Shown here: positions 15,282-28,217 of the stretch, in pieces
How positions within the stretch are numbered: the stretch's first letter is position 1
Layout of the letters: each line of letters opens with the position of its first letter
From: an uncultured Opitutia bacterium
GTDB taxonomy: Bacteria; Verrucomicrobiota; Verrucomicrobiia; Opitutales; UBA953
Direction of reading: 5' to 3'
Assembly: GCA_903925205.1 (NCBI GenBank)
Contig: CAIYEN010000232.1
Span: 1 to 35,722, forward strand
Length of the DNA stretch: 35,722 nt
The notes under the pieces: generated by a model
The model's database searches: none
What the model was told of the DNA's origin: nothing
Seen by the model: the letters and a program-made list of their open reading frames with translations, nothing else
Position numbers and translations under genes: made by a program

Positions 15282-15683
15282 TTAGCGATTGGGGCGCGTC
15301 AACAAACGCGGACGCAGGCCGGACTTCGCCACGGCGTCGAGGGCGGCGATGGCGGCACCCGTCAACGAGCGCTCGTCCGCAATGATGAGCACTTCGGCGC
15401 TGGGGGACTGGAGAGCCTTGGCCGCCAAGGCCTGCTCAAGGGCCGCGCGGGTGATCGGCTTACCTTCCAGGAAAAGTTTTCCTTCGCGATCCACCGCGAC
15501 GACCAAGCTCGCCGCCGTCGTGCTCGCCCCGCCGGCATCGGCCGCGGGAGGCACGATGGCCAACGTTCGAGCTTCCTCAAAACGCCCCGCCAACAGCAAG
15601 AAGAAGACCAAGACGACCATCACGTCGATCAACGGAATCACGTTGATATCGGCACGCCGGCGACGGGGAACGACCAGACTCAT
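15282..15683 (-). CDS. Biopolymer transporter ExbD
   Basis: ExbD/TolR-type proteins work with ExbB/TolQ in the inner membrane to convert proton-motive force into motion of a TonB- or TolA-like partner. The 133-residue protein has a short basic cytoplasmic N-terminus (PRRRRADINVIPLID), one transmembrane helix with the essential acid at Asp20, and a periplasmic domain with the usual beta-alpha pattern (VDREGKLFLEGKPI, VLIIADERS). Its start overlaps the exbB stop by 4 nt. No tonB-like gene is adjacent. Confidence 0.93.
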   Translation of the reverse strand: MSLVVPRRRRADINVIPLIDVMVVLVFFLLLAGRFEEARTLAIVPPAADAGGASTTAASLVVAVDREGKLFLEGKPITRAALEQALAAKALQSPSAEVLIIADERSLTGAAIAALDAVAKSGLRPRLLTRPNR

Positions 15684-16231
15684 CGCGGGTTTTTTTCTAA
15701 GCCTTCGACGAGCACATCGAGCTGCGAAGACATGACTTCCACCCGACGACCGAGCCAGTTAGCGCCAATGAGTGCCGGGATGGCGATGCACAAGCCGATC
15801 ATGGTCGTGCTCAACGCCAAGCCGACCCCACGTGTGAGCGTCTGCGAATCGGGCAGGCCGTGGTCAGGAAAAAGCGTGGCGAGCCCCGTGACCGTCCCGA
15901 GCAGGCCGAGGAGCGGGGCACCAGCGACAATGCTATCGATCAGGAAGAAGCCGCGTTGCAGGCGGACCAGTTCAGCGCGCGCGTGGGCCTTGAGCACCTC
16001 GCCCGTGGCCCCCTCTTTCCAGCGCAGCACCAAACGCCCCGCGACCGAATCGGCGGCCTCCGAGTTCAGTTCCTTGGCGCGACCTTCTCGGACCAGCTTA
16101 AGCACGGCGGCCGGGGCGACTTTGCCAGGCATCAGGGCCAGGGCGCGTTCGATCACGAGAAAAACGACCAAAATGGAGCAAACTCCCAGCGGCCAGATAA
16201 AGAGACCAGCACCTTCGAGAAGGGTATTCAC
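15680..16231 (-). CDS. MotA/TolQ/ExbB proton channel family protein
   Basis: This is the ExbB-type inner-membrane proton channel component pairing with the ExbD encoded just downstream. I choose the GTG at 16231 (183 residues). An AGGG lies 8 nt upstream, and the protein then begins VNTLLEGAGLFIWPLG directly before the first transmembrane helix. The reading frame is open back to an ATG at 16375, but that extension runs through the AT-rich palindrome and has no ExbB-like character. Three hydrophobic segments are seen, including IVAGAPLLGLLGTVTGLATLF and GVGLALSTTMIGLCIAIPALI. The last two form the conserved channel pair. It is the first gene of the six-gene minus-strand operon. Confidence 0.9.
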   Translation of the reverse strand: MNTLLEGAGLFIWPLGVCSILVVFLVIERALALMPGKVAPAAVLKLVREGRAKELNSEAADSVAGRLVLRWKEGATGEVLKAHARAELVRLQRGFFLIDSIVAGAPLLGLLGTVTGLATLFPDHGLPDSQTLTRGVGLALSTTMIGLCIAIPALIGANWLGRRVEVMSSQLDVLVEGLEKNPR

Positions 16232-16285
16232 AGAAGAAACCCTGAACGCCGCCCTCCAATCGGCAAGCCCACTCTCCTTATGCCC

Positions 16286-16334
16286 ATTATATGAATGGAT
16301 ACATTCATATAATACTCTAAATCGCTCATATAAT
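16286..16334. promoter_or_regulatory. AT-rich perfect palindrome with outward TATAAT boxes (divergent exbB / A1 control region)
   Basis: ATTATATGAATG at 16286-16297 and CATTCATATAAT at 16302-16313 are a perfect 12-bp inverted repeat around GATA. Each outer end reads TATAAT outward, so it can serve as a -10 box for the minus-strand exbB operon and for the plus-strand cassette. Recognisable -35 boxes at 17 bp are missing on both sides. A third CATATAAT half-site at 16327-16334 is exactly 21 bp (two helical turns) from the one at 16306. A regulator-bound divergent promoter is the simplest reading. Confidence 0.55.
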
Positions 16335-16353
16335 TCGGCAATACACTGCCGAA
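16334..16353 (+). other. Stem-loop in the A1 leader region
   Basis: TTCGGCA and TGCCGAA form a perfect 7-bp stem around a 6-nt loop. It is next to the third CATATAAT half-site and about 75 nt before the A1 start. It lacks a T-run, so I do not call it a terminator. A TTGACA at 16380-16385 with TTTAAT at 16406-16411 (20-bp spacing) is an alternative weak promoter further down. Confidence 0.35.
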
Positions 16354-16426
16354 ACTTCGTAAGGCGAGTACCCAATCTTTTGACAACAGAAACCCCGATG
16401 CCACATTTAATATATACCCCATTTCA

Positions 16427-19400
16427 ATGCGTCGCCCCCGCAAAGGTTTCTCCCTCGTTTTATCCCTCACCATCATGGCTGGCATGGTGATGTTGGTCAT
16501 CGTCCTCGCCGCTTTCCTGCAGGTCGAAAGCAAGCTGGCGCTCGCGCACAACGGCTACATGCGGGCCCGTTTCAACGCCCTCGTCGCCGCGAAAATCGCC
16601 ATCGGCCAACTGCAGCAACTCGCCGGCCCCGACCAACGCGTGACCATGCGGGCCGACCTCTATGCGGATGACAGCATCGCACCCGGTCCGCTTGACGCGA
16701 CTACCATCGCGAACACGGTCAACCCTTCCGCCCCTGTCGGGCGTAAACTTTCCCACCAAAAACGCTACTGGACCGGCGTCTGGGCCACCGGTGGCGTCAA
16801 TAGCACCAAAGTCCGCGACTGGAACGTCATGGACCCGCACAGTTCGCGACTCTTCCTGGGCTGGCTCACCTCCCCCGGCGTCATCAGCACGACCGACCCC
16901 GAAGCCCCGGACGCCACCAAGCTGCCGAACTACCTCGCGAACCGTTCGTACTTCGATAACTTCGGCAAAGTTCTCAATCCCGCTACCTACGACGGGCAAA
17001 AGCTCATTGATGACTTAGCCAACCCGATTGCCGCCGCACCGGATGGACTCCTCGTCCCGTTAGTCGGGCGCGGCTCCGTGCAGCTGCCCGGCAGCGTTAA
17101 CCGCTTCGGTCTCGAATATTCCGGTCAGATTGACGCCCTCCCTGTCCCCCTTCCGGGTGCGACCACCGCGGGTGGCATTTCTACTGGCATCAACGGACGC
17201 TACGCTTTCTGGGTCGGCGACGAAGGCCTCAAGGCCAAGGCCAACCTCCCCGACGCCTACGCCGTCACCGCGACTGGGGCCAGTTTCTCTTCGGTCACCG
17301 ATTGGGATGCCGGCTTCCGTGCCTCCGCCGCGCAACGCAGCGCCATCGAAGCCATCAAGCCAGCCGATAAGACTGACATCACCGGTGCCACGCTTCTGCC
17401 CACGGCCTTCACTTTCGGCCTCTGGCGCGATGCGGACACCACGACCGCCAGTAAGTGGGACGCCCTGTTGATGCGCACGGTCAAGGACCGCACTGCCCTC
17501 ACGCTCTGGGCAAACAAAGTCGGTAACACCTCCGCCGGCGAGGCGATGATCACCGCGAGTAAAGCTTTGTGGCATGACGTCACCCCGTGGTCGTTCTCGA
17601 CCCTGACCGACACCTATAACGGCGGCATCAAGATGGACCTCTCGACGGCCTTTGAAATCCCCTACGCGGATTACCGGGCGCTCGAAACCTACGCCGGCCA
17701 GAAGAACGCCACGATCACGACCGACCCGAAACTCCGTCGCCCCTCCCTCTTCCATGATGCGGCGGGGCCGACCGACCTCGACTTCAACCGCCCCAACATG
17801 CTCGACTACTTGGGCTCGGCGAGCGACTTGCTGAAATCGGCGCCGCGTTCCCCGGAATGGGCTCCGCGCTTCATGCAAGGCACGCTCGGTTCTGGCTATG
17901 CGACCCTGAAGAACCTGAACGGCGGCGAAACGCCAGAGCGCATGGGCTTTGTCTACGAAATCCCCTTGCGGGGTAATTTCTTCGGCGGGGTCGTCCAACG
18001 CCCCTCCGCGTTCTCCGGCCTCGGCGCCGGGGACGTCGACAACCTCAACAACCGGATCGTGCGCGGCCCGACCTGGGACTTATACCGCAACTATTACCGC
18101 ATGTACAAGCGCGAGCTCGAAACCGCCGGCGCAGCGAATAAGATTCTCGGGCAGAACGCCGTCGCCGACGCCACCACGGTGATGGCTCGGGGCGTCGAAC
18201 CCCTCTCCTACGCTGCTGGCGACCGCGGCACGCCCGTCGCCAAGCAAGGCACTGGCACCTTCTCCGTCAGCCCACCCGGCTTCTACGGCGCGTATCCCGG
18301 CAGCGGCACCTCCAACGACTACCACTACCGCAACAACTACAGCTCGGTTGTCGGTCCGAACTACCGCGCCCAAGGCGGCTACATGAACCCCACGACCTCG
18401 TCGACGGCCGGCATCGGCACACCGACCGGCCGCACCGGTTCAGAGGCCGCCGATTCGAGTTACGATCAGCCACGCCTCGCCACGACGCGCCTCTGGCCGA
18501 CTTCCATGAAGGTCGCGCCCAGCATCATCCGTTTCTCGTTAATGTATTCGGTAGTCTGGAACGACGACATGCTCGGCATCGCCGTCGACCCGCTCATCAC
18601 GGTGCACAACCCCTACGATTGCGCCATCGAGTTCCAAGGCATCGCGATGCTGATGAATGCCTACTCGCTCTCGCACCTCTTCGAATTCTACGCGGGCAAT
18701 CAAATCATCGGGGACGTCTTCCCGGGCACGAGCTTCGAAGAAGGCCGCGAATTCTCCTTCCGCGCCGTGGCTGGATCCAGCAACGGCACCTCGCCGAGCA
18801 GCGTCTTCCGACTCGAGCCGGGCGAAGTCCGCGTGCTGAGTTCGACCAAAGGCCCATTGCGCAAATTTGATACCAACGGCAACAACCAGGTTCCTGGCGA
18901 CTTCGTCTACGAAGAACAAAGCCGCATGTTCTTCCCCATCGACGCGTACGCGGGTCTCCGTAATTCCTCGGGCGCCGCCATCGCCGCCACGAGCAACGCG
19001 ACCCTGCAGGCCGTCCAAACCGCCCTCCCTGGCTGGGATGGCACCATCCCCTCGCTCAACTCGATTATCGCACAGCGCGGGCTCTCGCTCAACGTCCGCG
19101 TCCGTAATGAAGGCGGCGTGGCCCTCGGCGGAAACATGTTCCTGAACAACAGCATCCGCGGCGGCGGCCACGTCGTCGATGGCGGCTACCAAACCTGGAA
19201 CTTCTACCTGCTGAACAAGTACAGCCATGACAACCAGCAACTCAGCTGGGGCCGGCGCTGGTTCGGCACGACCGACGACACGCGCCAAGCCGGCGGCACG
19301 GGGGCCGTCATGGGCGTTGAACTCGTCAACGAACCGCTGCTCCTGAACTTGCGCTGCATGACCACGGGGTGGCCGATGTACGGCAACGCGAACAGCGGCT

Positions 19401-21364
19401 ATACCGTGAACAGTGACCCGGAATTCGGCGCCGCCCAAGGCTTCGGCAGCCAATGGTCGCGCTCGCTCCAGCTGGCGCCCGTCACCATCCTACGGTTTGC
19501 CGGCCAAAACCAAGACGCGTGGGCCAATGCGGGCAGCGCGGTCGACAAGCAGAAGTTCTTCATCTTGGACATCCTCGCCCGCGGGGCCAAAGAAACCTAT
19601 GCGGGCAATAACTGGTATCCGCAGAACAGCAGCTATGTGCCCAGCGGCGACTTCGACCGCATGAAGACCCCCGAAGAGATGCGCTCCGCCCCGATGTCTC
19701 CCTACGTCTTCAGCACGCGGGCCTCGCAGGCGTTCATGTTGGGCTACGATGGCAAGACGCACGCCCCGGCCGGCTGGATTATGAGCCAACGCGCGGTCGA
19801 CCAACTCGGCGTCAACAAGATGTACGACATCGACAACTCCGGCCGCAACCGTGGCTACTGGGGTAAGAGCGTCCTCGTTGGCCAAGGCGGCAACAATAAC
19901 GTCATCCTCTTCCCCATCCCGCGTCGTCCCTTGCTCTCGCTCTCGCAGCTCGGGGATGCGGCGACTGCGCAGACCGACACGGAAGCGGACCTCACCGTCG
20001 GCGCCTCCTTCGCCCACCCGGGCATCAAGAACCTCACCAAGGTCTGCGACTGGCCCGGCACCAAAGGCGGCGAGGAACCCGTTATCGAACACGGCTACGT
20101 CGCCAAGGCGATGGGCTCAAACGTCATCCGCCATAACGCCAACATCCGCACCGACGATGCCTTTGCGGCCAACCTCGCGCTCTGGGACAGTTACTTCTTC
20201 AGCGGACTCAACGCCCAAGTCGCCTCCTACAGCGACGCCGCCTCGACGTGGCCGAGCGGCCCGAACCTACCAACCGACGCCAAGGTCAAGGCCGACCAAG
20301 CCCTCGCGCTCACCGCTAACGGCGTCACGGACCTCACGAAGATCGCTGGCATCAAGGACGCCCTCGACAAGGGGAGCAATCCACTGGCGAACAAACGGGT
20401 GGCTTATGCGCCGACCACCGGCGGCCAGCCGTTCACGTTCCCTCACCCCGGCTACATTCCAACGAACGCGCTCTACGATGGCGGCTTCAACGTGAACTCG
20501 ACCTCCAAGGCGGCGTGGAAGGCAGTCCTTGGCTCGTTGCGCGGACAGAAACTCCCAGACGCGTCGGGCGTCTCCACGGGCACCGCGCTTACCCGGTTTG
20601 CGCGGGCCTTCGGCAATAGCGACGGCGCCACCGCCCCGTGGACGGCCTACCGTGAACTCACGGACACAGAAATCGATACCCTCGCCGCCGCCGTCGTGAA
20701 AGAAGTCCGGAAACGCGGTCCGTTCATGTCGCTCTCCGACTTCATCAATCGGCGCTTGGTGGCCTCGGATAATTTTGGCCTGAAGGGCGCGCTCCAAGCG
20801 GCCATCGACTCGACCAACATCAACGATCAGGCCATCACCAACGCCGGCGGGACGTTCGCCGCGGTGCCCGGCCAGCCACTGTCCGACCCCTACCTCCCGC
20901 TCCCCGCCCAAGACCGCTTCCCCACGCTGCGCTCGCTCAGCAAAGACAGCAGCCAAGGCTCGGCCATCGCTGGTCTGGGCGCCCCGGGCATCGTGACCCA
21001 GAAGGACGTTCTTAATTCCATCGGACCCAACCTCACCGCCCGTTCGGACACCTTTGTGGTCCGCGCCTACGGCGAAGCCCTCGACAACGCCGGCAACCCG
21101 ATCGGCAAAGCTTGGGTGGAAGTGGTTGTCCAACGCACCACGGAATTCGTCGGCCCCGCCTGGGTCGAACCGAACCGTCGGAAACAGAACTACCGTAACA
21201 ACGACGGCACCACGACGTCCGAATACGACACCAAGCCCATTGTGGACCACTTCGAACGTAACCCGCTCGCCACTGGCACCGCCCAGACGGGCAACATCAA
21301 CCGCCTCTTCGGCCGTCGCTTCAAGGCAACGTCGACCCGCTGGCTGAGCGGCAACGAAATCTAA
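16427..21364 (+). CDS. Verru_Chthon cassette protein A-like giant pseudopilin-like protein (A1)
   Basis: The 1645-residue protein begins with a basic leader MRRPRKG followed by FSLVLSLTIMAGMVML, a class III (prepilin-type) signal with a G/F cleavage site and one hydrophobic helix to about residue 32. The Glu5 of true pilins is replaced by Leu, as tolerated in GspK and PilX types. A long beta-rich exported region follows, with NPYD and LEPGEVRVL motifs and FNVNSTSKAAW. Near the C-terminus are GPFMSLSDFINRRL (about 1430) and a GspK-like block, LTARSDTFVVRAYGEA (about 1535), with WVEVVVQR. The last residues (RRFKATSTRWL) recur in A2. I recognise the family as TIGR02600-like; its function is unestablished. 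S1 follows after 4 nt. Confidence 0.85.
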   Translation: MRRPRKGFSLVLSLTIMAGMVMLVIVLAAFLQVESKLALAHNGYMRARFNALVAAKIAIGQLQQLAGPDQRVTMRADLYADDSIAPGPLDATTIANTVNPSAPVGRKLSHQKRYWTGVWATGGVNSTKVRDWNVMDPHSSRLFLGWLTSPGVISTTDPEAPDATKLPNYLANRSYFDNFGKVLNPATYDGQKLIDDLANPIAAAPDGLLVPLVGRGSVQLPGSVNRFGLEYSGQIDALPVPLPGATTAGGISTGINGRYAFWVGDEGLKAKANLPDAYAVTATGASFSSVTDWDAGFRASAAQRSAIEAIKPADKTDITGATLLPTAFTFGLWRDADTTTASKWDALLMRTVKDRTALTLWANKVGNTSAGEAMITASKALWHDVTPWSFSTLTDTYNGGIKMDLSTAFEIPYADYRALETYAGQKNATITTDPKLRRPSLFHDAAGPTDLDFNRPNMLDYLGSASDLLKSAPRSPEWAPRFMQGTLGSGYATLKNLNGGETPERMGFVYEIPLRGNFFGGVVQRPSAFSGLGAGDVDNLNNRIVRGPTWDLYRNYYRMYKRELETAGAANKILGQNAVADATTVMARGVEPLSYAAGDRGTPVAKQGTGTFSVSPPGFYGAYPGSGTSNDYHYRNNYSSVVGPNYRAQGGYMNPTTSSTAGIGTPTGRTGSEAADSSYDQPRLATTRLWPTSMKVAPSIIRFSLMYSVVWNDDMLGIAVDPLITVHNPYDCAIEFQGIAMLMNAYSLSHLFEFYAGNQIIGDVFPGTSFEEGREFSFRAVAGSSNGTSPSSVFRLEPGEVRVLSSTKGPLRKFDTNGNNQVPGDFVYEEQSRMFFPIDAYAGLRNSSGAAIAATSNATLQAVQTALPGWDGTIPSLNSIIAQRGLSLNVRVRNEGGVALGGNMFLNNSIRGGGHVVDGGYQTWNFYLLNKYSHDNQQLSWGRRWFGTTDDTRQAGGTGAVMGVELVNEPLLLNLRCMTTGWPMYGNANSGYTVNSDPEFGAAQGFGSQWSRSLQLAPVTILRFAGQNQDAWANAGSAVDKQKFFILDILARGAKETYAGNNWYPQNSSYVPSGDFDRMKTPEEMRSAPMSPYVFSTRASQAFMLGYDGKTHAPAGWIMSQRAVDQLGVNKMYDIDNSGRNRGYWGKSVLVGQGGNNNVILFPIPRRPLLSLSQLGDAATAQTDTEADLTVGASFAHPGIKNLTKVCDWPGTKGGEEPVIEHGYVAKAMGSNVIRHNANIRTDDAFAANLALWDSYFFSGLNAQVASYSDAASTWPSGPNLPTDAKVKADQALALTANGVTDLTKIAGIKDALDKGSNPLANKRVAYAPTTGGQPFTFPHPGYIPTNALYDGGFNVNSTSKAAWKAVLGSLRGQKLPDASGVSTGTALTRFARAFGNSDGATAPWTAYRELTDTEIDTLAAAVVKEVRKRGPFMSLSDFINRRLVASDNFGLKGALQAAIDSTNINDQAITNAGGTFAAVPGQPLSDPYLPLPAQDRFPTLRSLSKDSSQGSAIAGLGAPGIVTQKDVLNSIGPNLTARSDTFVVRAYGEALDNAGNPIGKAWVEVVVQRTTEFVGPAWVEPNRRKQNYRNNDGTTTSEYDTKPIVDHFERNPLATGTAQTGNINRLFGRRFKATSTRWLSGNEI

Positions 21365-21368
21365 TTCC

Positions 21369-22178
21369 ATGTCCTGGCTCCGTTTTTGCTTCGCCCTGCT
21401 TTGCCTGGGCGCCCTCCCCTTGCCTGCGGCCGACGCGCCGAAGGTGGAATCACGCCACTGCGCCCTCCGCTTTGCTTGGTGGAATTTCCCGCGCAAGGTG
21501 CCGGAACTCGCCCTGCAGATGGGCCGCGAACGCATCCCCGTCTCGCCGAACCCGATGTCACTGAGCAACCCCATCGACTACAAAGGCGACGTGAACGCGG
21601 TGCTGCTCAAGAAGGTCACCACGGGAGAGACGGAGAAGGACGGTAAGCCCAAGTTCGGCTGGGTGCCTTATGCGACCATCGCCTTAAGTCCCACGGACAC
21701 GGACATGGGCGTCTTGCTGATCCCCAATGAGGCGGACGATACTTGCATCACTCGGACGTTCGACTTTGGCCTGGAAGCATTCCCTTACGGAACGCTCAAA
21801 CTCGTGAACTTTTCGCGCGCGCGGATTGCCTGCAACTTAGACGGGGCCGTGTTCATGACGGAACCTGGCCAGACCGCCCAATGCCCGAAAAAGTTTGAGG
21901 AGCGTACCATCGCCTCCATTGCGGTCGCCGCCCTCGAAGCCGACGGCCAACAACGCGTGCTCTACTCAACCAAGGTCATTCTTAATAAAACGTTCCGCAC
22001 CCTGTTCTTCATCATCGAAAAGAACGGGGCTTCCGAGGATGAGCGCTACCAGAGCCAGTGCATCTTGGACGTGAACCCTTATCCGAACGGCGTGCCCCCG
22101 CCACCCGTCGCTCCCGCGAACAACGGCAAGGGCACCGGGAAAGCTGAAGCGAAGACCCCAGGCAAGGCGGCGAAATAG
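21369..22178 (+). CDS. Secreted partner protein S1, unknown family
   Basis: I do not recognise a named family. The 269-residue protein has a Sec signal peptide (about 1-22, ending near LPAA). It shares blocks with the two small proteins at 26677 and 27495: C-A-L-R-F-A-W-W near residue 31, a central PYATIALSPTDTDMGVLLIP, DDTC..RTFDF, FPYGTLKLVNFS, and a C-terminal strand region before a Pro/Lys/Ala-rich tail. Conserved cysteines in the first and third blocks could form a disulfide. It starts 4 nt after A1, is followed by a terminator, and is probably translated together with A1. A periplasmic or surface partner or chaperone for A1 is only inference. Confidence 0.8.
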   Translation: MSWLRFCFALLCLGALPLPAADAPKVESRHCALRFAWWNFPRKVPELALQMGRERIPVSPNPMSLSNPIDYKGDVNAVLLKKVTTGETEKDGKPKFGWVPYATIALSPTDTDMGVLLIPNEADDTCITRTFDFGLEAFPYGTLKLVNFSRARIACNLDGAVFMTEPGQTAQCPKKFEERTIASIAVAALEADGQQRVLYSTKVILNKTFRTLFFIIEKNGASEDERYQSQCILDVNPYPNGVPPPPVAPANNGKGTGKAEAKTPGKAAK

Positions 22179-22197
22179 TACAAACACAGTGCTATAT

Positions 22198-22235
22198 GAC
22201 GGCCTTCACGCATTAGCCTGAAGACCGTCTTTATT
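22198..22235 (+). terminator. Intrinsic terminator after the A1-S1 module
   Basis: GACGGCCTTCA and TGAAGACCGTC pair over 11 positions with one C/A mismatch around a 10-nt loop. They are followed by TTTATT. It lies 20 nt after the S1 stop and before the A2 start, separating the two modules into distinct transcripts. A weak TTGTAT (22241) and TAATTT (22263) pair with 16-bp spacing could be the A2 promoter. Confidence 0.75.
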
Positions 22236-22274
22236 ACCGATTGTATCAATTGGGTGACTGGCTAATTTCACCCC

Positions 22275-25200
22275 ATGCCCCCCACGCACAAGCGAGGATT
22301 TTCGCTCGTCCTATCTCTTACCATCATGGCTGGGATGGTGATGCTGGTGATTGTGCTCGCCGCCTTCCTGCAAGTCGAGGGACGCCTCGCCACCACGCAT
22401 TCGGCTTACCTGCGCGCCCGCATGAACGCTGCCGTCGCCGGCCGCCTCGCGGTCGCCCAACTGCAAACCCTGGCGGGGCACGATCAGCGCGTGACCGCCC
22501 GCATGGACTTGCTCGACGGCACGAAGCAAGGGACCTCCCTCAACACCTATCTGCAAAGCAAGGCCGCCCTCACGGTGGCTGAAGATAAACGGACCTGGAC
22601 CGGCGTCTGGTGTACCGGCGGCGCTGACCAATCGAAGATCCGCGACTGGCTGGTCACCGACCCGGATAAGCGCCTCTTCCTCGGCTACCTCGTCTCCGCC
22701 GACCCGAGCACTGGCCAGGCCGTGGCGAACATGGTGCCGAACCGCCAGCTAAAGATTGGTGAAGCACTCTCGATGGACCAGTTGCTGAAGAGCGCCGCGA
22801 CGGCTGCGAGCACTTCGGTCCGCACCGTTCCTTTGCTCGCTTACGGCACCATTGCCCGCGACGCTAAAACCGATACCCGCGTCAAGATTCCGCCACTCCC
22901 CCTGCCCGGCGTCGGTACCAACGACGCCCCGCTTGGCAACTATGCTTGGTGGACCGGGGACGAAAGCATCAAGGCAAAGGTCAATCTTTCCGAAGCCTAC
23001 ACAACATCGCCGAACGTCTGGGACAAGGGCTTCCTCTACAGTGCCGCCCGGCGCACGGGCCAGGAAACGCTCGGCGGCAGCACTTCCCTGGCGTGGCCTA
23101 ACTTCAAGCTCTGGGCCGACGCCGACATCGCGTCAATCGGCGGCTCCAAACTTTCCTACGTCTCTTCCGGGGGCGACCTCGGCGCTTGGGCGGCCGGCAT
23201 CACCGCCAATGCGGCCAACGGCACGCTCGCAGCCGACACCGTCGCCAAGTACTACAACGACATCACGCTCCGCTCCTATGGCGTGCTCTCGGACACCTAT
23301 AACGGCGGGCTCCGCACGGACCTTTCCATCGCCTTCGAGTTGCCGCACGAAGACTTCAAACTACTGGGCGAATTCCATGACAGCCCAGGCTCTCCAGGCG
23401 ACCGTAACGTGATTAACCTCGCGGGTAATTTCGGATTCTCCGCCGCCAACACGCCGTCGTTTGCCGAATGGGGCGACACGAGCAATAAGCTCGGCTTCGT
23501 CTTCGAGGCTCCGATTCCGAACAACACGAGCGGCCCGTCGGCCGTCCCACCAGCGATGGGCACGAACCAAGCCCTCATCGACCAAGGCCCGCGCTCGGTG
23601 CCCTCTTCCGGAACCTATGCGAATGGCTCCAAGGATTACAGTGGCGACGACTGGACCGTCCGAGGTCCAACGTGGCTACTGATGCGTAACTTCTATCGCC
23701 TGTATAAGCGTGAGCTCGAAACGACCGGCGCGCGTGGCCAGCCGGCCAGTGCCGCCGATGCCTGGTTTGCCCGCACGGCCGAACCGTTCACTTATAGCTC
23801 AGGCGTGACGGGTTGGAGCTGCGTGGGCGATCCCGCGGGCCCCACCTACCTGGGCGAGAAGTACAACGCCGGCATCCTCCACCGCAAAGCACGCATGCTC
23901 AATTACGGCGGCGGCAATTGGGTCCGCACCACCTACCAGCCGCATCAATTCTCGAAGGTCTCTTGGTCGACCGCAGGCGGGCAGTTCCCGCAACCCACGG
24001 CGATGAAGCTCGCGCCCACCATCCTGCGCCACACCCAGCGCTGGGGCGTGATCTATAATCAGGACACCCTCGGCGTGACCTTCGACCCAATCATCACGTT
24101 ACATAACCCTTACAATGTCGCGCTCGAGTTCACAGGCTTTGGGGCGTACTTCAATAAATACTACCCCTTGGCGCTGACCTTCTCGCGCGTCAACACGAGC
24201 ACGGGCGTCGAAGAGCCGCTCAACCTCAGCGGTGTAAACACGAACGGGCTCTCCTTCACCAACGGCGTCTTCTACCCGCAGACCAACGGCTTCAACCGCT
24301 CGTTCGCCATCCGCTGGGTTGCCAACGAGGGGGGCGTGCTGCGCATGAACCCGGGCGAAGTAGTCGTCATCGGCTGCGAAGGCTCCACCAACACCGGCCT
24401 CTCCAACAACGGCGCCTCCATCATCAAATCGGGGCGCAGCTACGACCCGGATAAGGCCCGCCACTTCTACCGCATCCTCGGCGACGGCGGCAGCGTCTCG
24501 ACGGCCACCAACGGACTGCCCATCATCAGCCGAATGTATGCCGCGTGGGTGCCGACGTCGGGCTCAAACGCAAACGGTAATGACTCCTCCGGCGGCTACT
24601 GGGACGGCCTCTTCATCCAGTACAACCTCATGCATTATAAGCGGGACAATGGGTCGACGACCTACCCGCTCGCCAAAATCTGGGGCGGCGAGAACTACGC
24701 CGAGTGCGACGGCTCCGACGAAGGGCTTATTAATCGGACGGGTTTCTTCACCTGCTTCTACCCCGACGCCGTCACCGCCCGCAAGGTGCTCGCCCAAAAG
24801 ACGATCACCCGCACGGGAGAATCCTCCTCCGCCGCCTTCATCGAACGCACGTTCGTCGGCGTCATGGACCTACGCTGGCGCTCGCCCGCGGATGCGCGGA
24901 CCGTCGATAACCTCGCCCTCGGCGACGCGCGCGGCGTCGGTGCGGGCACGGGCTCACCGCTCGTCGCCGACATGCGCTACGATGCCACGGACCCGCGCGA
25001 CTGGGATGCCGACTCGCTGCAGTCGCCGCCGATGATCCTAAGTTTCTACCAAGACCCGGGCTCCTTCACGCCAGTCGACATGACGTCGAACAATAAAGGC
25101 TACTACGGCAACAGCTACAAATTGAACGAAGGCCGCACCGAAACGGTACTCTTCGAGGTTCCCCAGCGCCCGATGCTTTCCCTGACCGGGCTCGGCCATG

Positions 25201-26672
25201 TGCAGTTCGGCACCTTTGCGACGCAACCCGCCTACACCGTCGGCAATAGCTTCCCGCACATTGGCCTGCCGAACACGACCATGACGCTCTTCTGGCCGAA
25301 TTCGTGCGTCAGTCCCATGGCCCGCGTCGACAACGGCACGGCGGACTTCGGCACGGATAATGGCAACACGTCGACCATCCGAACGGACAGCGCCTTCCTC
25401 GCCAACTTGGCGCTCTGGGATCGCTACTTCTTCTCTGGCGCCAACGCCGCCATGCCCAACATCGCGCGCAATACCTTCTCAGGCGGCGTCTCCACGCGCA
25501 ATCCCGCCGCCGCCGTGGTGACGGCCGGCAACCAGAAGCCGAGCCTAGCCGACGTCTGGGACGAACTCGCCCTCGGGAATAAGCCGCTGGCCAACAAACG
25601 CCTGACCTGGGGCCGCTTCAGCGATGGGCGCAGCGACACCGAACTGAAGAACGATTTCTACCGCAAGCCGACCTCCACGCCGCGCCCCGCTGGTGAAGTC
25701 CCCGCCCGCCCTGAGCGCGTCGCAAAACAGTTCCTGTACGAAGGTGCCTTCAACGTAAACTCGACCTCCAAGGAAGCGTGGCGCCTGATGCTCACGTCAC
25801 TCCGGAGCGTTGACACACCCAATTCCTCCGTCTTCAGCCGCTTCGGCATCCCACCCAACACCACGGACACGCAAGGCGCGGGCTCCTATTGGGGTTTAAA
25901 ATTCCATAGCCTGACCGACGCCGAAATCGATAAGCTCGCCGATAACATCGTGATCGAGGTCCGCCGCCGCGGGCCGTTCATGAGCATCGCCGACTTTGTC
26001 AACCGCCGCCTCACCAACCAAGCCACGGGCCTCAAGGGCCCCCTCCAGGCGGCCATTGACGCCTCTGGCCTGAATGATTACGCCGTGGCTTCAGGCAAGA
26101 TGAAGGAAGGCTTCGCCACGAAAGTCACGACCGACGGCGGACGTTTCCCACAGGCGAAGGCCTTTGACCCAGCGGCTTATTCCATGTCGTCCAACGCCCA
26201 AGGCACGGGCGCCTTCCCCTCGCAAGCTGGCTCCCACTCGCACCTCCTCCAGATGCAAGTCCTCAACGCCATCGGCCCTTCCCTGACCGTCCGCGGCGAC
26301 ACGTTTGTCGTCCGAGCGTACGGCGAAAGCCTCAGCGCCAATGGCGAAGTCGCAGGCAAAGCTTGGGTCGAACTCACCGTCCAGCGCATGCCCGAATTAC
26401 TAATCGCGGACGACAAGGAGCCCACCGTGGCCATCGGCGCCCTCCCTGTCGGCAGCAGCATCACGGTGCCAGCGGGCGGCAGCTCCGCCGGCGATAACTT
26501 CGGCGGTGGCGGTGGCTTCGGCGGCTACCGCGCCCCTTCCATCACCAACTACGCGACCTCGCCCATCATGGAACGCTGGGTGCGCAATAAGGATGCCAGC
26601 CGTATCAATAACTTGCTCGGTCGCCGGTTTAAGATCACTTCCGTCCGCTGGCTCCGCGATTCCGACATCTGA
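22275..26672 (+). CDS. Verru_Chthon cassette protein A-like giant pseudopilin-like protein (A2)
   Basis: This 1465-residue paralogue of A1 has the leader MPPTHKRG and then the same prepilin-like helix; 28 consecutive residues are identical to A1. The helix runs into a conserved stalk with an LAGHDQRVTAR segment. Shared later blocks are NPYNVALEF, MNPGEVVVIG, ALWDRYFFSG, NKPLANKR and FNVNSTSKEAW (about 1160). GPFMSIADFVNRRL follows near 1231, the GspK-like LTVRGDTFVVRAYGES near 1333, and the terminal RRFKITSVRWL. A Gly-rich insertion (DNFGGGGGFGGYR) sits near residue 1410 and is absent from A1. The middle regions diverge strongly, which suggests distinct binding surfaces. S2 begins 4 nt after the stop, the same spacing as A1-S1. 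Confidence 0.85.
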   Translation: MPPTHKRGFSLVLSLTIMAGMVMLVIVLAAFLQVEGRLATTHSAYLRARMNAAVAGRLAVAQLQTLAGHDQRVTARMDLLDGTKQGTSLNTYLQSKAALTVAEDKRTWTGVWCTGGADQSKIRDWLVTDPDKRLFLGYLVSADPSTGQAVANMVPNRQLKIGEALSMDQLLKSAATAASTSVRTVPLLAYGTIARDAKTDTRVKIPPLPLPGVGTNDAPLGNYAWWTGDESIKAKVNLSEAYTTSPNVWDKGFLYSAARRTGQETLGGSTSLAWPNFKLWADADIASIGGSKLSYVSSGGDLGAWAAGITANAANGTLAADTVAKYYNDITLRSYGVLSDTYNGGLRTDLSIAFELPHEDFKLLGEFHDSPGSPGDRNVINLAGNFGFSAANTPSFAEWGDTSNKLGFVFEAPIPNNTSGPSAVPPAMGTNQALIDQGPRSVPSSGTYANGSKDYSGDDWTVRGPTWLLMRNFYRLYKRELETTGARGQPASAADAWFARTAEPFTYSSGVTGWSCVGDPAGPTYLGEKYNAGILHRKARMLNYGGGNWVRTTYQPHQFSKVSWSTAGGQFPQPTAMKLAPTILRHTQRWGVIYNQDTLGVTFDPIITLHNPYNVALEFTGFGAYFNKYYPLALTFSRVNTSTGVEEPLNLSGVNTNGLSFTNGVFYPQTNGFNRSFAIRWVANEGGVLRMNPGEVVVIGCEGSTNTGLSNNGASIIKSGRSYDPDKARHFYRILGDGGSVSTATNGLPIISRMYAAWVPTSGSNANGNDSSGGYWDGLFIQYNLMHYKRDNGSTTYPLAKIWGGENYAECDGSDEGLINRTGFFTCFYPDAVTARKVLAQKTITRTGESSSAAFIERTFVGVMDLRWRSPADARTVDNLALGDARGVGAGTGSPLVADMRYDATDPRDWDADSLQSPPMILSFYQDPGSFTPVDMTSNNKGYYGNSYKLNEGRTETVLFEVPQRPMLSLTGLGHVQFGTFATQPAYTVGNSFPHIGLPNTTMTLFWPNSCVSPMARVDNGTADFGTDNGNTSTIRTDSAFLANLALWDRYFFSGANAAMPNIARNTFSGGVSTRNPAAAVVTAGNQKPSLADVWDELALGNKPLANKRLTWGRFSDGRSDTELKNDFYRKPTSTPRPAGEVPARPERVAKQFLYEGAFNVNSTSKEAWRLMLTSLRSVDTPNSSVFSRFGIPPNTTDTQGAGSYWGLKFHSLTDAEIDKLADNIVIEVRRRGPFMSIADFVNRRLTNQATGLKGPLQAAIDASGLNDYAVASGKMKEGFATKVTTDGGRFPQAKAFDPAAYSMSSNAQGTGAFPSQAGSHSHLLQMQVLNAIGPSLTVRGDTFVVRAYGESLSANGEVAGKAWVELTVQRMPELLIADDKEPTVAIGALPVGSSITVPAGGSSAGDNFGGGGGFGGYRAPSITNYATSPIMERWVRNKDASRINNLLGRRFKITSVRWLRDSDI

Positions 26673-26676
26673 TCGT

Positions 26677-27498
26677 ATGCGTCTCTTCCTTTTCCTAGCC
26701 ACCGCTCTCTCGCTGGTGGCTGCCCCCGAACCGCCCCCCGAGCGTCGGTGTACCTTACGGCTGGCTTGGTGGGCGAACCCAACGGAGCGCGTAGAATTGG
26801 CCATCGTCCAGGGCAAGGAAATCGTCCCCGTCGTGGCGCTCGAAATGAACCTCGACCTCTCGAAGGAATACCGCGGCCCCGCGCAGCTGGTCCTGGTGCG
26901 TAAAAAGGGAGACGTGCAAAAGGTGGAGGCCTTTGACCCCGATAAACTCTACGCCCAAGGCGCTTCCCCGCCCCCGAAGCCAGACGCCAAGGCCAAGCCC
27001 GAACCCGTAAAAAAAGAAAAGGCGGACGACTGGGCCCCTTTCGCCACGGTGGCTTTGCCCGATTCGCCCGATGTCGGCGTAGTGCTGCTCATGGCTCCCG
27101 ACGGCACCTGCGCCGGCCGGTCCTTTGATTACGAGGCGGGGCGCTTTCCGTATGGCTCCATTCGCGTGGTCAACCTTTCGGCGGCCACTTTGGCCGGTGA
27201 AATCGATGCCAAGGGCTTCCGCTTGGCCCCCGGCAGTTCCGACCTCCTCCCCGTCATTTTCCGGGAACGCGTGACGAGCCACATCAAGCTGGCGGCCCTG
27301 CTCCCGAACAACGGCCTCGAGCCGATTTTGGGCACTAAGATTGCAGGTCGACCCAACCGCCGCTCCTTAGTTTTCGTGCTGCAGACGGGTGTCTCGACGG
27401 ATGGCCGACCGCTCTTTGAAAGCCGTAGCATCGAAAGTGTGGAGCCTGTCGCCCCAGTCGTCGTACCGCCCCCCAACGGCAAGCCCGCGGTCAAATGA
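26677..27498 (+). CDS. Secreted partner protein S2, same family as S1
   Basis: I take the ATG at 26677 (273 residues), 4 nt after A2, because it gives a clear signal peptide MRLFLFLATALSLVAA. The open frame extends further upstream inside A2 but without sense. Shared blocks with S1 are CTLRLAWWANP near residue 24, PFATVALPDSPDVGVVLL, DGTCAGRSFDY, and FPYGSIRVVNLSAATLAGEID. A Lys/Pro-rich stretch (about 95-115) is inserted between the first two. No enzyme motif is visible. The stop overlaps the start of S3 by 4 nt (ATGA), indicating coupled translation. The function is unknown. Confidence 0.8.
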   Translation: MRLFLFLATALSLVAAPEPPPERRCTLRLAWWANPTERVELAIVQGKEIVPVVALEMNLDLSKEYRGPAQLVLVRKKGDVQKVEAFDPDKLYAQGASPPPKPDAKAKPEPVKKEKADDWAPFATVALPDSPDVGVVLLMAPDGTCAGRSFDYEAGRFPYGSIRVVNLSAATLAGEIDAKGFRLAPGSSDLLPVIFRERVTSHIKLAALLPNNGLEPILGTKIAGRPNRRSLVFVLQTGVSTDGRPLFESRSIESVEPVAPVVVPPPNGKPAVK

Positions 27499-28217
27499 GG
27501 CAGCTCTGGCTCAGCCTCTGCGTGCTGACCCGCCTGGTGGCACAAGAACCCGCCACGCCAACGCAGGTCGCGGCGACAACTCCCCCCGGAAGCATCTTGG
27601 TGCAAGCCTGCTGGGCCGGCCCGCCCGGAGGGAAAGTTCACCTCGTCACAAAGCCCTCGAATCAGGCCATCCCCTTACAGGCGCAAGCCAGCGCCATCGT
27701 CGCCAACTCCATCGTGCCCCCGTGTGAAGGCTTTGAACTGTGGGTCGCGAGCGCCCCGCAAGCCAAGCGGGTGGCGGAGTTCCCTCTCCCCAAGTCTGGC
27801 CAGCGTTTCATCTTGGTGCTGCAAGGCGAACACCCTGCCTCCATGCGGGCCTGGCTCGTGCCCGCGGACCTCGAGGCCTTTCCTTGGGGGTCAGCTTGCC
27901 TGCTCAACCTTTCGGACAAACGCCTCCGGTGTCGCCTCAACGACCAAGCCGGCGAAGTGGATCCGGGGAAATCCGGCGTCATCCCCTTCATCGCCACGGA
28001 CCGGACCAGCGCTCACCTCACGCTCGATTACCAGGAGGGAAAGCAGTGGTTACCTGATTGCTCGACGAAGACGATCCTCTCGCCGGCACGCCGCTTCATC
28101 CTGGTCGTTGGTCCGGGCCTCGCCGCGCAGGGCCCCTTGCCCAAGGAAACAGTCGTCGAAACGAACCCGGCTCCGCTTATAGCGCCGCCGCCGCTGCCGC
28201 ATCCGCCAGCCAAGTAA
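27495..28217 (+). CDS. Secreted partner protein S3, divergent member of the S family
   Basis: The 240-residue protein has a short signal peptide ending near RLVAQ. It retains the first-block pattern as ILVQACWAGPPGGK and the third as LEAFPWGSACLLNLSDKRLRCRLN, which aligns with FPYG...VN.S in S1 and S2, then a PG turn and a closing RRFILVVG strand. It is shorter because the middle is reduced. The tail is Pro-rich. It overlaps S2 by 4 nt at its start and the convergent 6-phosphogluconolactonase gene by 41 nt at its end. Homology to S1/S2 is by eye and weaker than between those two. Confidence 0.7.
   Translation: MRQLWLSLCVLTRLVAQEPATPTQVAATTPPGSILVQACWAGPPGGKVHLVTKPSNQAIPLQAQASAIVANSIVPPCEGFELWVASAPQAKRVAEFPLPKSGQRFILVLQGEHPASMRAWLVPADLEAFPWGSACLLNLSDKRLRCRLNDQAGEVDPGKSGVIPFIATDRTSAHLTLDYQEGKQWLPDCSTKTILSPARRFILVVGPGLAAQGPLPKETVVETNPAPLIAPPPLPHPPAK

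Follow-up and report, generated by a model that had tools for sequence, protein, structure and literature searches.

The window, by which we mean the whole 35,722-nucleotide stretch of DNA analysed here, carries two gene modules, each of which would encode one giant minor pseudopilin of the GspK type (hereafter A) together with its own small exported partner or partners (hereafter S). Pairing of A with S is spread across the phylum Verrucomicrobiota, and the reading that we find probable is that A is a giant subunit of a pseudopilus tip and S its dedicated exported tip subunit, with the motor encoded elsewhere. The computed support for this reading comprises the GspK fold of an A homologue, the S family and its predicted fold, the near-obligate adjacency of the two genes, their co-diversification, and secretion machinery located elsewhere in the genome. 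The parts belong to known machinery, and the combination of a giant GspK with a partner family of its own appears to be undescribed in the databases and papers searched.

Layout of the two modules and their genome

The modules, A1-S1 and A2-S2-S3, form a compact set of five genes on the forward strand between positions 16427 and 28217, and the reading frames bear out this arrangement as given in the preliminary description of the window. The features are as follows.

16427..21364, + strand: A1, putative giant GspK-type minor pseudopilin, 1645 aa (from the reading frame, the A1/A2 alignment and the fold of the homologue L144 A)
16427..16540, + strand: prepilin signal of A1, RRPRKG/FSLVLSLTIMAGMVMLVIVLAAFL, with Gly at -1, Phe at +1 and no Glu at +5, as in GspK
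20468..21361, + strand: C-terminal GspK-like block of A1, FNVNSTS ... RGPFMSLSDF ... RSDTFVVRAYG ... GRRF
21369..22178, + strand: S1, predicted exported two-domain beta-sandwich partner of A1, 269 aa; starts 4 nt past the A1 stop
22198..22229, + strand: terminator-like hairpin, then a short U run (UUUAUU), between the modules
22275..26672, + strand: A2, putative giant GspK-type minor pseudopilin, 1465 aa
25731..26669, + strand: C-terminal GspK-like block of A2
26677..27498, + strand: S2, predicted exported partner of A2; starts 4 nt past the A2 stop
27495..28217, + strand: S3, second S-family protein, 240 aa; its start overlaps the S2 stop by 4 nt

The start of S2 was read from the sequence as the ATG at 26677, the longer listed frame from 26506 overlapping A2. 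With gaps of 4 nt between A1 and S1 and between A2 and S2, and an overlap of 4 nt between S2 and S3, the genes are arranged as in a translationally coupled unit. The terminator claimed between the modules is matched by the hairpin and its U run (folding energy of the region between S1 and A2 −23.9 kcal/mol, z −3.1), though a simple terminator scan did not list it. From the translations, we take the flanking genes to be ExbB/ExbD, an M42-type peptidase, 6-phosphogluconolactonase and NrdA/NrdB; the ExbD/ExbB-type pair (15282-16375, − strand) is divergent from A1 and about 50 bp away from it. No B, C or D pseudopilin gene adjoins A1 or A2 among the flanking translations read in the window, as had been claimed.

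Judged by their alignment, A1 and A2 are paralogues that are alike at both ends and diverge in between, sharing the prepilin-like N-terminus and GspK-like C-terminal block originally described for them: identity is 33% in the N-terminal half and 35% in the final ~510 residues (E 3e-94 and 3e-74), with no match across A1 residues about 838 to 1134. The named relatives of A1 are metagenome-assembled genomes (MAGs) labelled Opitutae or Verrucomicrobiota. By sequence similarity S1-S3 are likewise one family, S1 and S2 being 33% identical (2e-34) and S3 a weaker relative of both (4e-9 and 5e-9). Of the two motifs previously assigned to all three proteins, the FPYG/FPWG block is present throughout and the WW block is confined to S1 and S2, S3 having a single W. 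The Sec signals hold up as N-terminal hydrophobic segments of the Sec type, seen in S1-S5; such a segment occurs in 89 of 93 S proteins, and a lipobox-like motif in 3 of 93.

The source genome, a draft assembly of 2.47 Mb with 282 contigs, holds about eight A genes or fragments, including a second tandem A-S-A-S layout on contig C215 (locus L021). A type II secretion system (T2SS) and further pilus-type machinery lie on contigs other than that of the window: the one prepilin peptidase found is on C233, ATPases of the T2SSE family (PilB/PilT-type) are on C184 and C125, and a canonical GspK-like gene is on C267. A well-assembled sister genome has a full T2SS-like cluster of GspD-E-F and the pseudopilins H-I-J-K-L-M, in which the gene letters other than K are our assignment from reading. 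The earlier view of a self-contained system is not supported, as neither a peptidase gene nor genes for an ATPase or a platform protein form part of the pair and the machinery is found on other contigs. The separate GspK-like gene on C267 means that A supplements, and does not replace, ordinary GspK.

A as a probable giant GspK-type subunit

The fold of A was analysed on a full-length homologue of 1156 aa from Roseibacillus persicicus (L144 A) rather than on A1 itself, using an AlphaFold model with a pLDDT of 82.7 and a pTM of 0.86. With a structural aligner, only 2 of 995 PDB chains reached Z >= 5, and both are GspK: Pseudomonas aeruginosa XcpX (5vtm_X; Z 12.1, 220 of 259 residues) and Escherichia coli GspK (3ci0_K; Z 11.4, 239 of 280 residues), with the next best match at 3.8. 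This agrees with the GspK-like architecture of the preliminary description. Since the alignment covers model residues 38-1147, an insertion of several hundred residues sits within a complete GspK scaffold; the model also has an N-terminal helix of 58 residues. At the level of the prepilin signal, Phe+1 occurs in 71 of 73 A proteins and Glu+5 in 1 of 73, as expected for GspK. For A1, we estimate from the motifs WVGDEGLKAKANL near residue 260 and FNVNSTS at 1354 that the insertion would span roughly 1000 residues. The paired Asn motifs of A (..KxN.. and FNVNST) resemble, in our assessment, the NLN/NINTA motifs of GspK.

Sequence comparison by itself does not assign A to GspK, and its GspK identity comes from the structural aligner applied to the homologue model. 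A scores far below the cut-off of 130 bits for NF037980 (GspK), the best match being one paralogue in the source genome at E 6.5e-4, with 13-16 bits in other genomes; hhalign of a profile of the A C-terminal block against one GspK sequence gave no support; a Pfam search of A1, A2 and S1-S3 gave no match, and neither did a PDB sequence search with the A C-terminal and S profiles. Foldseek alone, run with the full homologue model, placed GspK only at rank 7 with an E of 0.22, which is not significant by itself. On the strength of the model, A is a giant GspK-type minor pseudopilin with an insertion in the GspK scaffold. It resembles GspK/XcpX (NF037980, PF21687; PDB 3CI0, 5VTM) in an N-terminus without Glu+5 and in an alpha-beta core and C-terminal half that superpose (Z 11-12), and differs from it in length (987-2045 aa against about 300 aa for GspK), in carrying the giant insertion, in adjoining S among unrelated genes outside any gspH-I-J-K operon, and in coexisting with an ordinary GspK in the source genome.

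In the reading that we favour, A would be processed by the single prepilin peptidase of the cell and would enter the tip of a pseudopilus of the T2SS or type IV pilus type via its GspK scaffold, with the large, mainly beta insertion projecting outwards as a variable part that does the work of the tip. Between near-identical orthologues the insertion does not evolve faster (about 90% identity throughout), and it does so only between distant orthologues. The very large and variable insertions, the up to about 20 A copies per genome and the weak resemblance of the beta-rich insertion to beta-sandwiches of sugar enzymes and CBMs would also suit a giant adhesin, displayed on the surface or secreted, that uses its pilin-like segment only as a membrane anchor, with S as a cap or anchor and no pseudopilus at all. 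Such an anchor would not need the complete GspK scaffold that A retains, including the C-terminal half past the insertion, and we consider this explanation unlikely.

Verru_Chthon cassettes combine an A protein with B, C and D pseudopilins. The A proteins of the window had been described as related to Verru_Chthon A yet distinct from it, and both parts of that claim are supported. A1 and A2 score 12.1 and 11.2 bits against TIGR02600, about 320 bits below its cut-off of 332.3 bits, and a TIGR02600 search of their own genome gave no match at E 0.001; hhalign of A with TIGR02600 proteins nevertheless returned homology with 98.1% probability (E 9.8e-14) over 201 columns, confined to the N-terminal part and including the FWxxDE..K.N motif. 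Both are thus large pseudopilin-like proteins of Verrucomicrobiota with a homologous N-terminal stretch of ~200 columns, and by these scores A is a distant relative of Verru_Chthon A and not a member of it. We infer that A and the TIGR02600 proteins are two branches of one giant-GspK group, the fold having been seen on the A side only. That A might instead be a divergent cassette A using B, C and D pseudopilins encoded elsewhere is in keeping with the N-terminal homology (E about 1e-13) and with the GspH/I/J-type pseudopilins found elsewhere in the genus. We hold this to be very unlikely in view of the scores of A1 and A2 (12 and 11 bits, with the cut-off at 332), of the 2 of 145 phylum genomes that pass this cut-off whereas A-S is widespread, and of the true cassette loci (L079-L086), which have next to their A what we read as B, C and D-type pseudopilins and which contain no S; in the window, S stands in place of adjacent B, C and D.

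The S family and its partnership with A

The model of S1 (pLDDT 91) has two beta-sandwich domains, an N-terminus of the Sec type and a loose tail rich in proline. Its top fold match is the extracellular Ig-like domain pair of PepT1/PepT2 (5A9I, 7PMY; Foldseek E 1.7e-6 to 8e-4, Z 12.5), which has the same two-domain arrangement; S differs in being a separate secreted protein without the transporter part, at 8-13% identity, and we read the similarity as a common fold that probably carries no functional meaning. AlgF of alginate acetylation (6D10, 6CZT) is likewise small, exported and built of two beta-sandwiches; both of its domains align with the second S domain only (Z 8.7 and 7.7, a range common among beta-sandwich matches), and there is no sequence match to S. 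A search with 43 diverse S proteins found none in Pfam-A at E 0.01 and one chance-level match in NCBIfam (E 0.0093). S is thus a secreted protein that, as modelled, consists of two beta-sandwich domains, and it has no family in Pfam or NCBIfam.

S was found in 53 of 61 genomes of the family to which the window belongs. To assess its genomic context, A was located by its C-terminal block and S searched separately in 18 of these genomes, where each of the 48 S places listed has an A next to it in the same orientation, S being downstream of A in 42 of them and directly upstream (S-A order) in 6. In 18 S-bearing genomes of a phylum-wide sample, with A found by a broad profile and S searched independently of A, 98 of the 104 S places among the matches listed adjoin an A. 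Conversely, 97 of the 113 A genes in these phylum genomes have an S; the remaining share of about 14% is higher in the window's own family, and such genes mean that A can exist without S. Starting from A in 79 loci of named records, S was seen beside A in 91 of 92 cases, with a median gap from A to S of 4 nt (79 cases). These loci come from Opitutia, Akkermansiaceae, Verrucomicrobiaceae, Haloferula, Roseibacillus, Rubritalea, Prosthecobacter, Coraliomargarita and one member of Kiritimatiellota; a few of the record names (such as Polynucleobacter, and MAGs labelled Akkermansia muciniphila) may reflect mislabelled MAGs. Since the S search scored no more than 19 candidates in any genome, its S copy numbers are lower bounds. 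Long S-containing frames that were opened as possible natural A-S fusions (G018, G028, G034) proved to be out-of-frame GC-rich frames or adjacent genes.

The evolutionary distances between A proteins are a good guide to those between their S partners, with a correlation of 0.92 (53 pairs). Co-inheritance alone yields correlated distances, and to this extent the adjacency might be a hitch-hiking of two unrelated genes. That explanation is hardly credible, being already contradicted by the adjacency counts (94-100% observed against a chance level of about 0.4% per S), by the retention of the pair while other neighbour genes change, and by shuffling S within the 14 genomes that hold two or three pairs, after which a correlation that had been 0.90 averages 0.30 (p 0.0006). 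The drop on shuffling indicates that the two genes are duplicated and relocated together. Taken with the counts of 48 of 48 in the family and 98 of 104 in the phylum, this shows a dedicated partnership in evolution, inherited as a unit, which by itself is no proof of contact. The dedicated exported partner postulated for each A is upheld in this sense: S homologues are not found mostly away from A, and their adjacency is not limited to one genome.

In our preferred tip-subunit reading, S would be exported by Sec, fold into two Ig-like beta-sandwiches and dock on the insertion of A. A somewhat different possibility, to which we give an appreciable but minor chance, is that S is a periplasmic assembly chaperone that holds or folds the insertion after translocation and is then released, being absent from the finished structure. 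In favour of this, S is a small exported protein whose production keeps pace with that of A (a gap of 4 nt) and which co-diversifies with A, and its Ig-like fold is common among pilus chaperones. The occurrence of A genes without S, and of some A genes carrying two different S genes, is unexpected for a simple obligate chaperone, and no known pilus chaperone is among the listed fold matches of S, which is weak evidence.

Further arrangements of A were observed in individual lineages. Three genomes of one order (G099, G105, G108) each hold about 20 A and at least 18 S genes, a strong lineage-specific expansion. In L023 (1-8673, contig C109 of the source genome), L170 and L169, A is directly followed by an ABC importer set (ATPase, solute-binding protein and permease, presumably of an iron/polyamine type), and S lies upstream of this A in two relatives. 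In L020 (3977-10428, contig C113 of the source genome) and L172, an A without S keeps a conserved position between genes for an ABC ATPase and a MATE-type exporter. A short A of about 860 aa (L024, 548-3130; L240, 3845-6433) is divergent from two LuxR-type response regulators and has no S beside it in this genus; a short A of about 1000 aa occurs with S in other Opitutales-level relatives (G078, G120, G151, G199). In a Kiritimatiellota locus (L135, 5845-10622), the place of S after A is taken by an SGNH-type esterase, past which lies a gene that we take to encode a GH2-like enzyme.

Possible link to polysaccharides and comparison with known systems

At hand-picked loci of the Akkermansiaceae and Coraliomargarita type, sulfatases, heparinase-like lyases and rhamnosidases are found among the neighbours, along with members of GH2, 10, 20, 81, 94, 106 and PL4, and a sulfatase directly follows some A-S pairs (G083 C5 and C44). 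A rule-based sample of 83 neighbours, which has no matched control, contains about 12 carbohydrate enzymes, a count that includes enzymes recognised from the hand-picked loci; housekeeping genes are also frequent in it. In a set of three genomes with 27 A loci, 9 of these loci have a sulfatase no more than 10 kb away, against an expectation of 4.1 (p 0.016); the proximity is also seen at 15 kb (p 0.007) and is not significant at 5 kb (3 of 27 against 2.3 expected). A role of A-S in polysaccharide handling is suggested by this weak signal. Since the pairs stand amid housekeeping genes in the window's own genus, we offer the polysaccharide reading as a hypothesis. In its fullest form, which we regard as speculative and rather doubtful, the pairs would be pseudopilus tips, each specific to a substrate, that capture polysaccharides or pull these across the outer membrane; with one pair for every glycan, they would be the Verrucomicrobiota equivalent of SusC/D.

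Pseudopilus tips normally consist of few, small and conserved subunits. In Verrucomicrobiota, what appears to be a giant tip-type subunit has multiplied time and again, reaching up to about 20 copies in a genome, and in most cases it comes with a partner of its own from a protein family that has no name. If A does sit at the tip, this would be a modular means of adapting a single secretion or pilus machine to many targets. It would also make A-S a candidate for the handling of large polysaccharides by Verrucomicrobiota, which bears on carbon turnover in the ocean and the gut.

Comparable cases are found within the phylum. In Verruconatronum alginivorum, a pseudopilin is over-expressed on alginate, and the PulG-like pseudopilin from its alginate cluster has 67 homologues (PMC13274419). 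In Akkermansia, according to a review that covers the pili of mucin-utilization loci, mucin accumulation needs pili and periplasmic complexes (PMC12418764). The published pseudopilin family of V. alginivorum is PulG-like, unlike A, and the portions of these two sources that we draw on describe no A-S pair (PMC13274419, PMC12418764). The likeness of both systems to A-S, as far as those portions go, lies in pseudopilin or pilus genes that are tied to glycan use in the same phylum (PMC13274419, PMC12418764).
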